Assembly: GCF_024580145.1 (NCBI RefSeq)
Contig: NZ_JANINI010000003.1
Coordinates: 124,001-188,000 of the forward strand
Reading direction: 5' to 3'
Length of the DNA stretch: 64,000 bases
From: Methyloversatilis sp. XJ19-49
GTDB lineage: Bacteria; Pseudomonadota; Gammaproteobacteria; Burkholderiales; Rhodocyclaceae
The position numbers and the translations under genes were made by a program. Below, piece by piece: positions 15,644 to 62,990 of the stretch. Every line of letters starts with the position of its first letter. Position 1 is the stretch's first letter. A model generated the notes under the pieces. It was given only the letters and a program-made list of their open reading frames with translations, did not search any database and had not been told where the DNA came from.

Positions 15644-15823
15644 GTGGGAGCGGCGGCCAGTGAGTGGGAGGGGCCTATGGGAGCGGCGGCCAGTGGGAGC
15701 GGCGGCCAGTGGGAGCGGCGGCCAGTGGGAGCGGCGGCCAGTGGGAGCGGCGGCCTCGCCGCGATTGATGCCGCGATGATCGTTGATCAACGCGCCGATC
15801 GCGGCGAGGCCGCCGCTCCCACA
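15644..15823. repeat. REPIN with tandemly expanded half-arm
   Basis: A 16-bp unit, GTGGGAGCGGCGGCCA, is repeated at 15644, 15678 (one base short), 15693, 15709 and 15725. It then runs without interruption into a full arm at 15741-15765, which ends TCGCCGCGAT. The inverted arm is at 15798-15823. The tandem part shows that the half-arm has been duplicated by itself. Confidence 0.87.
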
Positions 15824-15856
15824 GAGAGCTCCCACAGAGACCGCTCCCTTGGGCGC

Positions 15857-16279
15857 CTACTTCGCCTCGGCGAAGCCTTTCGCCAGCGTTTCCATGCGCG
15901 AGCGGTTCACGCCGAAATCGGAGTAACCCGTGCGCGCGCCGGAGCGGTAATGGATGACCGACGCACCGGCGTCGATGGCGAACTCTGCGGCATCGACGAA
16001 GCGAAAGATGCGCGAGCGGAATTCGGCGGCGATGAAGCCGGGCTCTTCGCGGGTAATGGTGGCGCGCGGCTGGGCGAGGATGACCTGCTTGAGTCGCGCC
16101 TGCGCGGCGGCGGCGTCGCCGCTGAAGGGAATCGGCGTCATCTTCGCCGCGCTGTCCGACTGGGTCGACACGCAGTTGGGCGAGTCGGGGCAGGGGGTCA
16201 GCATGCGCGGGGCGGCATCGGCGGCGAGGGCGGTGGCGGCGCAGGCAGCGAGGGCCAGCGCGGTGTCGCGGGTTTTCAT
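15857..16279 (-). CDS. Nested DUF1499 protein with its own start and signal peptide
   Basis: An internal ATG at 16279, in the same frame as the peroxiredoxin, is preceded by CAAGGAG with a 6-nt spacer, a near-ideal ribosome site. From it the product begins MKTRDTALALAACAATALA followed by ADAAP, a typical cleavable signal peptide. The DUF1499 body then has CPDSPNCVSTQSDSAAKMTPIPF and the end VNRSRMETLAKGF. This 140-residue reading is the normal size of a secreted DUF1499 protein. Its function is unknown. Independent translation is inferred from the ribosome site and signal. Confidence 0.7.
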   Translation of the reverse strand: MKTRDTALALAACAATALAADAAPRMLTPCPDSPNCVSTQSDSAAKMTPIPFSGDAAAAQARLKQVILAQPRATITREEPGFIAAEFRSRIFRFVDAAEFAIDAGASVIHYRSGARTGYSDFGVNRSRMETLAKGFAEAK

Positions 16280-16837
16280 GGTGTGCTCCTTGAGCCACGC
16301 CAGTACGTCGGCGGCATTGCGATCGGGCGGAAACACCGGGTAGAACACCTTGACGATGCGTGCGTCGTCGGTGATCAGGGTGAGCCGCCGGTAGAGCTCG
16401 AGGCCAGCGGCGGTGAAGGTGGGCAGGCGCAACGCGGCCTTGAGCTGCAGGCCGTCGTCGCTCAGCAGCGGAAAGGGCAGGTGCAGGCGCGCCGCCGCTT
16501 CCTGCTGGTAGTCGCCGTCCTGGCTGCTCAGCCCGAACACGCCGGCGCCCAGCGCGGCCAGTTCGGCATGGTGGTCGCGGAAGGCGCACGACTGCGGCGT
16601 GCAGCCGCGTGCGCCGGGTATCGCGTCCCAGCCGTCGGGCAGCGGCACATCCGGCCGGCCGGTCATCGGATAGACATAGATCACCTGCAGGCCGCGCAGC
16701 GTCGCGAGATCGGTTGTGCCGCCGTCGGTGCGCGGCAGCGCCAGCGCGGGCAGAGGCATCCCTTCGAGATGGGCAGCCGCGCCGTCGTCGAGCGGCACCG
16801 GCAGGTCGTCGGGCAGGGTGGTGAGCGATGTCGCCAT
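15857..16837 (-). CDS. Peroxiredoxin (PrxQ/Bcp-like) fused in frame to DUF1499
   Basis: One open frame of 326 residues holds two proteins. Residues 1-186 are an AhpC/TSA thioredoxin-fold peroxiredoxin with VIYVYPMTGRP and the peroxidatic-type motif GCTPQSCAFRD (C79 and C84), followed by SSQDGDYQQEAAARLHLPFPLLSD. Residues 187-326 are a DUF1499 protein with CPDSPNCVSTQ. The join holds a complete signal peptide that makes no sense inside a cytoplasmic fusion (see the nested entry). Either the peroxiredoxin stop codon has been lost, or both a fused and a short product are made. The gene lies 54 nt after the secreted DsrE protein gene. Confidence 0.8.
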   Translation of the reverse strand: MATSLTTLPDDLPVPLDDGAAAHLEGMPLPALALPRTDGGTTDLATLRGLQVIYVYPMTGRPDVPLPDGWDAIPGARGCTPQSCAFRDHHAELAALGAGVFGLSSQDGDYQQEAAARLHLPFPLLSDDGLQLKAALRLPTFTAAGLELYRRLTLITDDARIVKVFYPVFPPDRNAADVLAWLKEHTMKTRDTALALAACAATALAADAAPRMLTPCPDSPNCVSTQSDSAAKMTPIPFSGDAAAAQARLKQVILAQPRATITREEPGFIAAEFRSRIFRFVDAAEFAIDAGASVIHYRSGARTGYSDFGVNRSRMETLAKGFAEAK

Positions 16838-16891: not shown

Positions 16892-17302
16892 CTACCAGGT
16901 GAGCGTGCGCGTGTTGTCGCGGAACAGCGCTTCGCCCACCCGCTCGGGGTCGTCGAGCAGCATGCCCTGCATCAGACTGGCTTCGGTTACGCCGTAATGA
17001 CGCATGCAGACGCGGCACACCAGCACGACCGCGCCCTTGCCCATCAGGTCGCGCAGCAGCTTCTGCTGGGTGACGAAGTTGCGAAGGTTGCTGCTGCTGC
17101 CCATGCGCACGGCCTGATCGTTCAGGAACACCGTCAGCGCGTGGCCGCGCGCCATCTGGTCCCGCGCGAAGATGAGCCCGGTTTCCGAGCGCTGCGAGTT
17201 GTCGCTGGTCAGGTTGAGGAACAGCGACGGTCGATCCGCCGCTTGCGCCGCAGCGCAGACGATGAGTGCGAAAAAGGCGGTCAGGACGGACCTGAGTGAC
17301 AT
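16892..17302 (-). CDS. Secreted DsrE/DsrF-like protein
   Basis: This 136-residue protein starts at ATG 17302, preceded by GGAAGGAA. Upstream in-frame codons would add 29 residues before a clear signal peptide, SLRSVLTAFFALIVCAAAQAA. The mature part follows the DsrE fold: PSLFLNLTSDNSQRSETGLIFARDQM, LTVFLNDQAVRMGS, then VLVCRVCMRHYGV with C-x2-C, where sulfur-carrier relatives hold their active cysteine. DsrE-like proteins move or bind sulfur as persulfides, but many periplasmic versions have no known role. The adjoining peroxiredoxin suggests thiol or sulfur stress. Confidence 0.78.
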   Translation of the reverse strand: MSLRSVLTAFFALIVCAAAQAADRPSLFLNLTSDNSQRSETGLIFARDQMARGHALTVFLNDQAVRMGSSSNLRNFVTQQKLLRDLMGKGAVVLVCRVCMRHYGVTEASLMQGMLLDDPERVGEALFRDNTRTLTW

Positions 17303-17473: not shown

Positions 17474-18070
17474 CTACCAGTCGATCTCGAACATGCAGGC
17501 GGTCGCACCCATGGCTTCGCAGGCGGTTTCGCGCACCCGCGCGCGCGGATGCACGAGCACCCGGAACAGGTGCTCGAAGGTGGCGGCGTAGTAGTCGCAG
17601 GCGGGCGCGTCGAGTACCACGCCACGGCACAGCGGGTTGTCCTGCAGCGTCATCACGACCGGCTTGCCGGCGCGCGCGCTGAAGTGCCCGCTGCCGGCAA
17701 AGGTCCAGGCGTGGCGCCGGATCGCCGCCAGCAGCACGCGCGCCGCGAGCGGTGCCGGCAGGTGGCGCAGCAGCGCCTGTACCGGACGCGGAATGCGCCG
17801 GGCCAGCAGGTAGTCGGCGGTGCGCCGGCCGGCGTCGCGCGCCACCGCGCTTGCGTCGACCGGGCCGACGCTGGCGCGGAGCACCCTGTGCAGGCGCATC
17901 ACCTCGGCTTCGTCCACCATCGATTGCGGCGGCTGCCCCAGATAGCGCAGCAGTCCGGCCCGGCCGAAGATCAGTGCCGTGAAGGCCTCGCCATTGCGCT
18001 GCTGCAGGGCTTCGGCCACGCGGGTGATGGCGTTCGGACCGATGCGGTTCGTTGCGTTCGACGCATTCAT
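17474..18070 (-). CDS. bchJ: BchJ-like protein (V4R domain, bacteriochlorophyll synthesis)
   Basis: This 198-residue protein has the BchJ pattern: N-terminal RIGPNAITRVAEAL, AGRRTADYLLARRIPRPVQALLRHLPAPLAARVLLAAIRRHAWTFAGSG in the middle, and a C-terminal V4R-type domain with DNPLCRG, E-H-L-F-R-V-L-V and ETACEAMGATACMFEI. BchJ was first proposed as the 4-vinyl reductase and now appears to be an accessory, possibly substrate-presenting, protein for chlorophyllide synthesis. The start is 13 nt after the bchE stop, so the pair forms one operon. No other photosynthesis gene is in the window. Confidence 0.85.
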   Translation of the reverse strand: MNASNATNRIGPNAITRVAEALQQRNGEAFTALIFGRAGLLRYLGQPPQSMVDEAEVMRLHRVLRASVGPVDASAVARDAGRRTADYLLARRIPRPVQALLRHLPAPLAARVLLAAIRRHAWTFAGSGHFSARAGKPVVMTLQDNPLCRGVVLDAPACDYYAATFEHLFRVLVHPRARVRETACEAMGATACMFEIDW

Positions 18071-18083
18071 GGTCGGCAGCCGG

Positions 18084-19790
18084 TCAGACGGTGCTGGCGT
18101 GGGCCGCTTCGTTCGCCGCAGCGGTGCGGGCCGCGTGGGCGGCCAGTGCGCGGTCGGCTTCTTCGTCGCTCAGCTGGTCATGCCCGCCGCCGCACGCGGC
18201 GATCGCAGCCGCGGCCAGTTCTTCGCCCTTCTTGCGCCGCATTTCGATCTTCGGGCCGTGCATGGTGACCCAGCCTTCGTCGGCGGCGGCGATCGCCGCG
18301 CCATCCGGTCGGGCATGCACGCGCTCGTCGGCGAAGGCGAAGTCCACTTTCTTTTTGCTTTGCGGGCCCCAGTAGCCGACCCGGCCGAGATCGTAGAACG
18401 TGCGTTCGAAGCCGCTCTTCAGGAAGGCCTTCAGGCAGCCCAGCAGGTATTTGCGCCGCTGCTTGTCCTTCTCCCACGGGTACTGGAAGAAGGTCTTGTT
18501 CATGAAGAAGCGACGGTAGTTGTTCATCACCCGGTCGAGCAGCTCGGCGCGGTCCATGGCGTCGGGCTTCATGATCGGGGTGACGAAGTTGTACTTTTCG
18601 TAGTCGAACACCTCGACCTTGTCGCCCAGTTCCTGGAACAGATCCGAGAACGGCCACGGCGTGTACATCGCCCAGTTGGCCATGTCGGGGTTCCAGTCGC
18701 GCGCCATGCGGTAGGTTTCTTCCAGCGTTTCGGCGGTTTCGTTTTCCAGGCCGACGATGAACTGCGCCTCGGTCACGATGCCGGCTTCGCGCAGCAGCGC
18801 GATCGCCTTCTTGTTCTGCGCGATCGTCGTTTCCTTGTTGAAGCGGTCGAGCTTCAGCTGCGCCGCCGCCTCGGTGCCCAGGCTCACGTGCACCAGACCG
18901 GCCCTGCGGAACAGCGGCAGCAGCTTTTCGTCGCGCAGGATGTCGGTCACGCGCGTGTTGATGCCCCACAGCACGCCCAGGTCGCGTGCGATCAGTTCTT
19001 CGCAGAACTGGATGAACTTCTTGCGGTGGATCGTCGGTTCCTCGTCTGCCAGGATGAAGAAGCCGATGCCGTGGTTCTTCACCAGGTCTTCGATCTCGTC
19101 GACCACCTTCTTTGGATCGCGGATGCGGTAGTCGCGCCAGAACTTCCACTGGCTGCAGAAGCTGCAGGTGAAGGGGCAGCCGCGCGCGAAGTTCGGGATC
19201 GCCACGCGCACGCCCATCGGAATGTAGATGTACTTGTCCCATTCCAGAATGCCCCAGTCCGGCGTGATGCGGTCCAGGTCCTGGATCGGCGGCTCGGCCG
19301 GCGTGGCCACCACCTGCGCGTCGGCGTCGAGAAACGCCACGCCGCGCACGCTCACCGGGTCGCGCGCCCACTGGCCGTCATCAACCGCGCGCACCAGGTT
19401 CAGGAACACCTGCTCGCCTTCGCCGCGCACCACGCAATCGATCCACGGCGCTTCCTTCAGCACCTGCGGATACATGAAGGTGCCGTGAATGCCGCCCAGC
19501 ACCGTCACCACCGACGGCTTCAGATCCTTGGCCAGCTTCAGCAGTTCTTCCGCCTTGTAGATCGACGGCGTGATCGCCGTGCAGCCGACGATGTCCGGAT
19601 CCAGTTCGATCAGCCGCGCCCGCACCTGATCGTCCGTCAGGTGATGCGTCATCGCGTCGATGAAGGTCACCTCATCGTAGCCGCCGGCCTTCAGGTAACC
19701 GGTGAGGTAGGCGACCCAGGCCGGCGGCCAGTTGCCCGCAATCTCGGCGCCGCCGGAGTGGTAATTCGGGTGGATCAGGACGATGCGCAT
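18084..19790 (-). CDS. bchE: BchE, anaerobic Mg-protoporphyrin IX monomethyl ester cyclase
   Basis: This 568-residue radical SAM enzyme uses a B12 cofactor to form the isocyclic ring E of bacteriochlorophyll without oxygen. The N-terminal cobalamin-binding part begins [20 protein letters not shown], the BchE hallmark, and includes [17 protein letters not shown] and [12 protein letters not shown]. The [4Fe-4S] motif is [10 protein letters not shown] (C205, C209, C212), followed by [12 protein letters not shown] and [12 protein letters not shown]. The C-terminal part has [25 protein letters not shown]. The start at 19790 matches the family. Two PpsR/CrtJ-type sites lie directly upstream. Co-occurrence with bchJ makes a generic B12 radical SAM annotation unlikely. 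Confidence 0.93.
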
Positions 19791-19814: not shown

Positions 19815-19832
19815 TGTCACGCAAAGCGTACA
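19815..19832. promoter_or_regulatory. PpsR/CrtJ-type site 1 (TGT-N12-ACA)
   Basis: TGTCACGCAAAGCGTACA matches the TGT-N12-ACA palindrome bound by the photosynthesis repressor PpsR/CrtJ in purple bacteria. Its near edge lies 24 nt upstream of the bchE start codon. Confidence 0.68.
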
Positions 19833-19839
19833 AATCACC

Positions 19840-19857
19840 TGTCCGTAAAAATTGACA
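19840..19857. promoter_or_regulatory. PpsR/CrtJ-type site 2 (TGT-N12-ACA)
   Basis: TGTCCGTAAAAATTGACA is a second exact TGT-N12-ACA, with 7 bp between it and site 1 (25 bp start to start). On the minus strand it reads TGTCAA at its left edge. Paired sites separated by 7-8 bp are the classical cooperative CrtJ/PpsR arrangement. Confidence 0.68.
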
Positions 19858-19982: not shown

Positions 19983-20417
19983 TTATCTCTCAACGAACAG
20001 GCACTTGACGATCGCCCGACGCGGCTTCTTCGCGTCGTAAAGCACGTCCACCCGGTCGCCACGGGCCAGCGACAGCACATCACGCGTCTTGTGTATCGGC
20101 ATCCATGTTCGAACCCGCGTGCCGACGGCTTCGAATTCGAACACCAACTGCCCGCGATCCTTCGCAATCATCAGGTCGGTGATCGTGCCGCTCACCGCCA
20201 CCCCGCGCGCGAACAGATCGGCGACACGCTTGATGCGCCAGAGGAGCACGGCGACGAGCGTGACGGACACCCCGACCGGAAGCACCAGCGGCAAGGCCGC
20301 GGCGCCACCGTACAGGTGCGGGAAGCCGAAATGGATCGCCCAGGTGATCGGCATCGCCACCCATGACGCCAGCGCGGGCCAGTCGTTCCACATGATTCTG
20401 ATCGGGCTGAAGTTCAT
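19983..20417 (-). CDS. Membrane protein, DUF3592-like
   Basis: This 144-residue protein has two membrane spans near the N-terminus (WPALASWVAMPITWAIHF and LPLVLPVGVSVTLVAVLLW). A cytoplasmic beta-rich part follows: GVAVSGTITDLMIAKDRGQLVFEFEAVGTRVRTW, then SLARGDRVDVLYDAKKPRRAIVKC. The G-T-I-T-D...V-x-F-E-F...G-D-x-V-x-V-L-Y-D pattern resembles the DUF3592 family, whose function is unknown. It opens a run of small, poorly conserved genes on the same strand. Similar-type but unrelated small membrane proteins follow at 20.6 and 21.9 kb. Confidence 0.6.
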   Translation of the reverse strand: MNFSPIRIMWNDWPALASWVAMPITWAIHFGFPHLYGGAAALPLVLPVGVSVTLVAVLLWRIKRVADLFARGVAVSGTITDLMIAKDRGQLVFEFEAVGTRVRTWMPIHKTRDVLSLARGDRVDVLYDAKKPRRAIVKCLFVER

Positions 20418-62347: not shown

Positions 62348-62584
62348 GTTTCAGGTAAAAACCTTTTGTTTTTAATGGGATAGAAAATGAATTGAATGTG
62401 CTTGGTGAGAAGCTGCGTGCAGGCCAGACTGCGGTGGGGCGAAGTGGGGCGGAAGTGGAGCGGAATGCCGCGCCAGCCGATGCAAACCGGTGTGGGGAAC
62501 AGCAGGGGCCGGGCAGGGAATCGAGCGGATGGAGGCGAGTGGAATGCGGGGGGGGGGCAAAAAGGGGAATTGCGCCGGGAGGGA

Positions 62585-62990
62585 GTGGAAGTCCGCCTGT
62601 AAGCCGGGTTCTGTTGTGCGCGAACGCACTGGCAACCATTCATCTGGGCGACGTGTTGCCACGTCGCTCGAGCAGCCTACCCGGAAGCGACGCGAGCCGC
62701 GTCATCGCTTCCCTATTTGGCCTTGCCCCGGATGGGGTTTTGCGTGCCGTGCACGTTGCCGCGCACGCGGTGGGCTCTTACCCGGCGTTGCCGCCCGCCC
62801 GCAGGCGCACCATTTCAACCTTGCCTGATCCTTGCGGCCATCGGCGGTATGTTTTCTGTTCCACTTTCCGTCGCCTTGGGCCGCGCTTTCGCGCGGCTTG
62901 CTGCGCCCGGCCGTTAGCCGGCATCCTGCTCTGCGGGGCCCGGACTTTCCTCCGCGCTTGCGCGCCGCGGTTGCCCGGCGGACTTCCGGC
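62585..62990 (-). ncRNA. rnpB: RNase P RNA (type A)
   Basis: On the minus strand the 5' end reads GGAAGTCCGCC and the 3' end GGCGGACTTCC, pairing as helix P1. The universal GAGGAAAGTCCGGGC lies about 45 nt after the start, and ACAGAACCCGGCTTACAGG lies at the 3' end. The length of about 400 nt fits bacterial type A. RNase P RNA is the catalytic part that matures tRNA 5' ends. The position just upstream of mraZ is common in betaproteobacteria. Exact ends are estimated from P1. Confidence 0.93.

Follow-up and report, generated by a model that had tools for sequence, protein, structure and literature searches.

Two cyclases are described for the formation of ring E of bacteriochlorophyll: BchE, which works without O2 and uses water and cobalamin, and AcsF, which works with O2 (PMC7242693, PMC4944227). 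The partner of BchE, BchJ, is reported to be no longer regarded as a vinyl reductase; its loss leaves vinyl reduction in Chlorobaculum, and the protein may be a chaperone (PMC7242693). Many aerobic phototrophs are described as devoid of bchEJ (PMC12654162), and the photosynthesis clusters of Bradyrhizobium are reported to differ in these two genes (PMC10569730).

Separation of the pair from the rest of the photosynthesis genes has been described in several groups. Rhodoferax antarcticus ANT.BR, a betaproteobacterium with two cyclases, carries bchE and bchJ next to each other and far from the cluster that holds acsF (PMC5374385). In Dinoroseobacter shibae and Roseobacter litoralis bchEJ also lie away from the cluster and are absent in some relatives (PMC6052148, PMC12654162), and in Myxococcota some genomes, though not all, combine acsF with a bchE outside the cluster (PMC10576062). 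In Skermanella mucosa (NZ_CP086107.1) no other photosynthesis gene is listed within 20 kb of bchE-bchJ, in a gene table that is incomplete. Finally, Rubrivivax gelatinosus is a betaproteobacterium reported to use both AcsF and BchE, for different O2 levels (PMC4944227).

The detached bchEJ pair of the Methyloversatilis genome studied here follows an arrangement for which several precedents exist among other phototrophic bacteria. The first-pass annotation, made from the DNA letters, had treated its isolation as highly surprising, which goes too far, since papers on several phototrophs already place bchE or bchEJ outside the cluster; the pattern would be no surprise to a specialist. Each of these systems nevertheless differs from the present one in some respect. 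In R. antarcticus crtI is next to bchEJ (PMC5374385; L032), whereas here it is found on another contig (C9), near crtD and bchI. D. shibae and R. litoralis are Alphaproteobacteria, and R. litoralis has the rest of the cluster on a plasmid (PMC6052148, PMC12654162). In S. mucosa it is bchEJ that reside on a plasmid, with a BLUF-domain gene upstream. The Myxococcota belong to another phylum, and the text seen from that report speaks of bchE and not of bchJ (PMC10576062). In R. gelatinosus the use of two cyclases is reported from experiments (PMC4944227), whereas here we only infer it.

The bchE-bchJ operon

The window, that is, the whole stretch of DNA that was analysed (64,000 nucleotides), corresponds to positions 124001-188000 of contig C23 (357,546 bases) in a genome assembly of 4,095,485 bases, 45 contigs, and 99.97% completeness. 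The two genes of the operon are:

bchE, 18084-19790, minus strand: oxygen-independent Mg-protoporphyrin IX monomethyl ester cyclase (TIGR02026, PF02310, PF04055, CxxxCxxC)
bchJ, 17474-18070, minus strand: V4R-domain protein (TIGR02019, PF02830), 13 nt after bchE

BchE is a protein of 568 aa with a single CxxxCxxC motif (C205/C209/C212), a B12-binding domain (PF02310), and a Radical_SAM domain (PF04055; both Pfam). Its score against TIGR02026 is 789.4 bits (NCBIfam; cut-off 481.35), with model positions 1-492 of 497 covered, the query used for this score having one additional codon ahead of the ATG. BchJ, of 198 aa, carries the V4R domain PF02830 (Pfam) and reaches 196 bits against TIGR02019 (NCBIfam; cut-off 74.3). 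Both reading frames are intact and 13 nt separate the stop of bchE from the start of bchJ, so that the full BchE, its cysteine motif, and the closely following BchJ are just as the first-pass annotation had described them. The gene bchJ comes after bchE in 73 of the 81 relative loci; the closest BchE relative with a name belongs to a Methyloversatilis MAG (98%; L005). Two comparisons among Methyloversatilis copies gave dN/dS values of 0.040 and 0.107 (bchE) and of 0.179 and 0.075 (bchJ), comparable to the 0.05-0.17 obtained in the same comparisons for the DsrE, peroxiredoxin, histidine kinase, and kefB genes. bchE is evolving under purifying selection.

We consider it very probable that bchEJ is a working operon for ring closure at low oxygen, in a bacterium that is probably phototrophic, though perhaps cryptically so, and that it is detached from the near-complete purple-type photosynthesis gene cluster yet included in its regulon. 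By analogy with the characterised families, BchE, with its radical SAM and cobalamin chemistry, would close ring E of Mg-protoporphyrin monomethyl ester when O2 is scarce, the oxygen coming from water, and the cluster-encoded AcsF would perform the same ring closure when O2 is present. From what is published on its family, BchJ probably holds or passes on the divinyl-protochlorophyllide intermediate. This Methyloversatilis has, accompanying its phototrophy genes, both an oxygen-dependent and an oxygen-independent cyclase.

A riboswitch at bchE was also considered and rejected: at gathering thresholds, the sole Rfam match in the window is the RNase P RNA at 62584-62986.

The variable slot and its occupants in Methyloversatilis

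Three further genes delimit the operon:

DsrE-like gene, 16892-17302, minus strand: downstream of bchJ, PF02635; backbone, probably outside the bchEJ unit
Peroxiredoxin-DUF1499 fusion, 15857-16837, minus strand: PF08534 and PF07386 in one ORF; backbone, probably outside the bchEJ unit
Gene upstream of bchE, 19983-20417, minus strand: unassigned to any family; bounds the variable slot on the opposite side

The DsrE protein and the peroxiredoxin that the first-pass annotation had listed as neighbours are present, with the refinement that the peroxiredoxin is a single ORF joined to DUF1499. In five genomes of the genus (G001, G002, G003, G007, and G008) the peroxiredoxin and DUF1499 halves match separate stretches, and the fusion therefore seems limited to part of the genus.

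The sequences of kefB, a pilin, the histidine kinase, and peroxiredoxin/DUF1499 are found together in 11/11 genomes compared; G011 and G012, with no close peroxiredoxin-DUF1499 homologue found, were excluded from this synteny and backbone comparison. Beyond this backbone the content of the slot varies. It holds bchEJ in three genomes: the own genome (G000), G004, and G005. G009 has in their place a HipB/HipA-like pair (L141 5856-7438), G010 has a XylR-like regulator among other genes beyond DsrE, and in G006 a helicase adjoins DsrE, the helicase match beginning 170 bases away from that of DsrE. A search at E<=1 of eight 20-kb loci lacking bchE found no remnant of either bchE or bchJ. At the other edge of the slot, the gene at 19983-20417, which matches neither NCBIfam nor Pfam models at E<=0.001, is loosely constrained (dN/dS 0.42-0.63); it is present in G009 without bchEJ, and G004 has a diverged fragment only.

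The occupancy of the slot bears on the functional limits of the operon. Given that bchEJ, DsrE, and the peroxiredoxin gene stand in a row on one strand, in an order kept in G004 and G005, all of them could be regarded as a single functional unit that shields the oxygen-sensitive cyclase. Such a unit is improbable because DsrE and the peroxiredoxin gene stay paired in genomes where bchEJ are absent (G006, G007, G009, and G010); in addition, 171 bases lie between bchJ and DsrE.

Of the 13 genomes of the genus, 10 have pufC, and acsF occurs in exactly these ten; bchE and bchJ are both above cut-off in the same three, all of them among the pufC-positive ones. As the pair is missing from seven of these ten genomes, it is dispensable there. 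On a tree of three backbone genes (11 of the 13 genomes), which does not resolve the branching of G000, G004, G005, G009, and G010, the presence of bchEJ needs at least two changes of state, be they gains or losses; close genomes with and without the pair share 94-96% DNA identity in these backbone genes. Tentatively, and with rather less confidence than in the function of the operon, bchEJ could be viewed as an exchangeable add-on in a variable slot, making an AcsF-only phototroph capable of oxygen-free bacteriochlorophyll synthesis. The pair would bring its own PpsR-type boxes and hence be under the resident regulator from the start, and the close genomes with and without it would constitute a natural experiment. 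The patchy occurrence of bchEJ among acsF-bearing close relatives provides a simple system for asking how a phototroph that has AcsF benefits from the anaerobic cyclase and BchJ. For Methyloversatilis, photosynthesis genes or a cluster are already in print (PMC12654162, PMC5810265, PMC5017807, PMC10576062), and among the papers listed in the library searched, the titles and abstract openings make no mention of bchE in the genus. The occurrence of bchEJ in three of ten pufC-positive Methyloversatilis, at a site whose content changes between close relatives, is apparently unreported.

In the same region, the stretch at 15644-15848 of the window consists of a 16-base unit that recurs as an array, with some copies inverted. 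Across the own genome it matches 106 times, frequently with the two strands matching at the same place (40/159 candidates scored), and it represents a REP-like palindromic repeat family.

Promoter boxes and the photosynthesis genes of the same genome

Two boxes of the form TGT-N12-ACA are found ahead of bchE, 25 bases apart from start to start:

Upper PpsR/CrtJ-type box TGTCAATTTTTACGGACA, 19840-19857, minus strand: at -67 to -50 relative to the bchE start
Lower PpsR/CrtJ-type box TGTACGCTTTGCGTGACA, 19815-19832, minus strand: at -42 to -25 relative to the bchE start

This motif is reported to be bound by CrtJ (PpsR) of R. capsulatus, whose bchC promoter has two sites 26 bases from start to start; CrtJ ChIP-seq peaks are described upstream of both bchC and bchE (PMC5362033). 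In the three bchE genomes of the genus the half-sites of the boxes are invariant in 12/12 columns, being kept in G004 and G005, and within the 120 bases upstream of bchE 34/36 box columns are invariant vs 56/84 of the others. The motif also precedes crtB, crtC/crtE, bchC, and bchI in the own genome, and is missing from the 300 bases examined for bchF and the aerR-like gene. As palindromes the bchE boxes are weak (5 and 3 of nine pairs); the values are 9 for crtB, 8 for crtE, 8 for bchI, and 4 for bchC. The motif is short, and across the entire window it occurs more often than chance predicts (16 observed vs 6.66 expected). Among 81 relatives (80 BchE relatives and G004), the 300 bases upstream of bchE contain at least one box in 45, including two in 5, and none in 36; against these 45, the expectation is 2.5 from stretches drawn at random in these loci and 2.4 (maximum 7) from shuffling of the upstream regions, in statistics that ignore kinship.

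The own genome has, together with the paired promoter boxes, a PpsR of 520.7 bits (cut-off 275.4), the two features by which membership of a PpsR/CrtJ regulon was judged, binding being predicted. The PpsR encoded by the cluster probably controls bchEJ through these two adjacent boxes, and this would place the operon in the photosynthesis regulon despite its detachment. The most likely role of the operon is to allow pigment synthesis at low O2 as well, under the control of this regulator. Control by FNR was rejected, there being no FNR-like box with up to two mismatches within 13042-35331, around bchE. A second PpsR-like protein is encoded near the cluster (C10:38305-39579; L003 18305-19579) and scores 286 bits against the same cut-off of 275.4; the G004 stretch matching its gene is split into two ORFs.

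The photosynthesis genes of the genome are distributed as follows:

Photosynthesis gene cluster, C9 end and C10: pufLMC, puhABCE, bchFNBHLM, bchCXYZ, bchIDO, bchGP, crt genes, ppsR, and acsF
Suspect joins: crtI, C9:81582 (L135 6582), and bchO, C10:2675 (L002)

pufC, on C10, scores 464.7 bits, and pufL, pufM, acsF, bchI, crtD, and ppsR are above cut-off (NCBIfam). The genes bchX, bchY, bchZ, bchL, bchN, bchB, bchM, bchG, bchP, and bchF are above the cut-off of at least one NCBIfam model, several of them passing one listed model and failing others. An annotated Roseinatronobacter cluster (L089) supplied 36 protein queries for tblastn, a set that does not include pufLMC and bchZ; with these queries the genes bchC, bchH, puhABCE, lhaA, and crtB/C/E/F were identified. 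On C10, 28 of the 36 queries have a match; those without are hemA, bchE, bchJ, idi, crtI, crtA, bchI, and crtD. The end of C9 carries bchI, crtD, crtI, and the first part of bchD, which is divided between the C9 and C10 ends, and with this one query set hemA, idi, and crtA have no match on C10 or on the C9 end. A total of 49 ORFs picked from a 60-kb stretch of G004 map to C9 and C10 with their order kept. crtI and bchO look broken, each holding one N with at least 60 bases duplicated on both sides, and these breaks therefore look like scaffold joins, not mutations. An annotator could mistake them for pseudogenes.

All the genes that the first-pass annotation had proposed to look for elsewhere in the genome (bchXYZ, bchLNB, bchM, bchD/H/I, pufLM, acsF, and ppsR) have thus been found. 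Of the two options it had left standing, the first, in which a phototroph has its bch genes scattered, holds at the gene level, given the cluster in the same genome. The other, a relic or a repurposed cyclase, conflicts with the intact frames, the bchE dN/dS of 0.04-0.11, the paired boxes, and the tree described below. That bchEJ are a decaying remnant of lost photosynthesis is very unlikely in particular. The pair is apart from the cluster and absent from 10 of the 13 genus genomes, and according to a review the use of the cluster by Methyloversatilis is unproven, as is pigment formation in the genus (PMC12654162); however, the own genome does possess the cluster, both frames are intact with dN/dS of 0.04-0.18, the boxes have been kept while their flanks drift, and the crtI and bchO breaks point to assembly joins. 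The relic was rejected on the presence of the cluster, the frames, the low dN/dS, and the conserved boxes.

Descent of BchE and distance from the cluster

In a first tree of 74 BchE rows (73 relatives and the window, 8 of the 81 loci having been dropped for a stop in the aligned span), the three Methyloversatilis proteins fall within 30 mostly Burkholderiales rows (100/99). A second tree, built with 23 of those rows and eight family genomes, puts the window BchE inside a 27-row clade (100/96) that takes in every pufC-positive genome of the family, and not outside the cyclase clade, a placement that the first-pass annotation had named as a possible refutation. Within this clade it is nested in 14 mostly Burkholderiales rows (100/99), a group that also includes G067, a family genome whose BchE is 80% identical. 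By branching, the nearest row outside the genus is Ideonella alba (98/90), and three BchE proteins of another family genus (g59, 64-65% identical) branch well apart. These placements suggest a horizontal descent of bchE in Methyloversatilis. PufLM of M. universalis is reported likewise to group with Burkholderiales (PMC5810265).

Among 150 family genomes, TIGR02026 has a match at E<=1e-100 in ten. Six of these BchE proteins score at least 785 bits and belong to exactly the six genomes with pufC at E<=1e-30. The other four, at 400-526 bits, are weaker BchE-like proteins from outside those six genomes (G054, G155, G020, and G055; L155, L156, L157, and L158); the pufC survey gives G020 explicitly as without a match, and G054, G155, and G055 fall in its unlisted remainder. 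They are 30-40% identical to the window BchE and lie outside the 27-row clade, two of them on very long branches, and may represent a non-photosynthetic relative. The G054 protein exceeds the curated TIGR02026 cut-off, and automatic annotation could therefore name it bchE.

The existence of such proteins in family genomes with no pufC found gives some room to the idea that the window BchE is itself a paralogue repurposed for a different substrate, with no role in bacteriochlorophyll. This is hardly credible, since the four proteins are so distant in identity and branching, whereas the window BchE is 63-99% identical to the BchE of pufC-positive genomes and is paired with BchJ and with PpsR-type boxes; the repurposed cyclase was rejected on tree placement, identity, BchJ pairing, and boxes.

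That the operon is detached from the cluster is also what its position indicates. The bchE match is at C23:142306-143787, at least 142 kb from both ends of the contig as its coordinates imply, and the cluster is on C9 and C10, so that by position bchEJ are not members of it. In 124 kb of C23 (104001-228000, comprising the window and three 20-kb stretches), the 36 cluster proteins, a set without pufLMC and bchZ, matched bchE and bchJ only, in agreement with the isolation claimed by the first-pass annotation. G004, a genome in one contig, has 1.56 Mb between bchE (1.06 Mb) and pufC (2.63 Mb), and its bchEJ are flanked by the same downstream neighbours as in the window. Although the assembly has 45 contigs and two suspect joins inside the cluster, an artefact in which the pair is part of the cluster and appears isolated by assembly or window limits, the other refutation foreseen at first, can be dismissed with near certainty and was rejected on the distance from the C23 ends and the arrangement in G004. 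A further gene of the query set is present in the flank of 33 of the 81 relative loci and missing from that of the other 48, for flanks of up to 10 kb, some of them short, and with pufLMC and bchZ outside the query set.

Elsewhere in the assembly, C15 and C16 (L086, L087) each contain a radical SAM gene with an equal score at a nearly equal offset; they are perhaps a duplicated contig.
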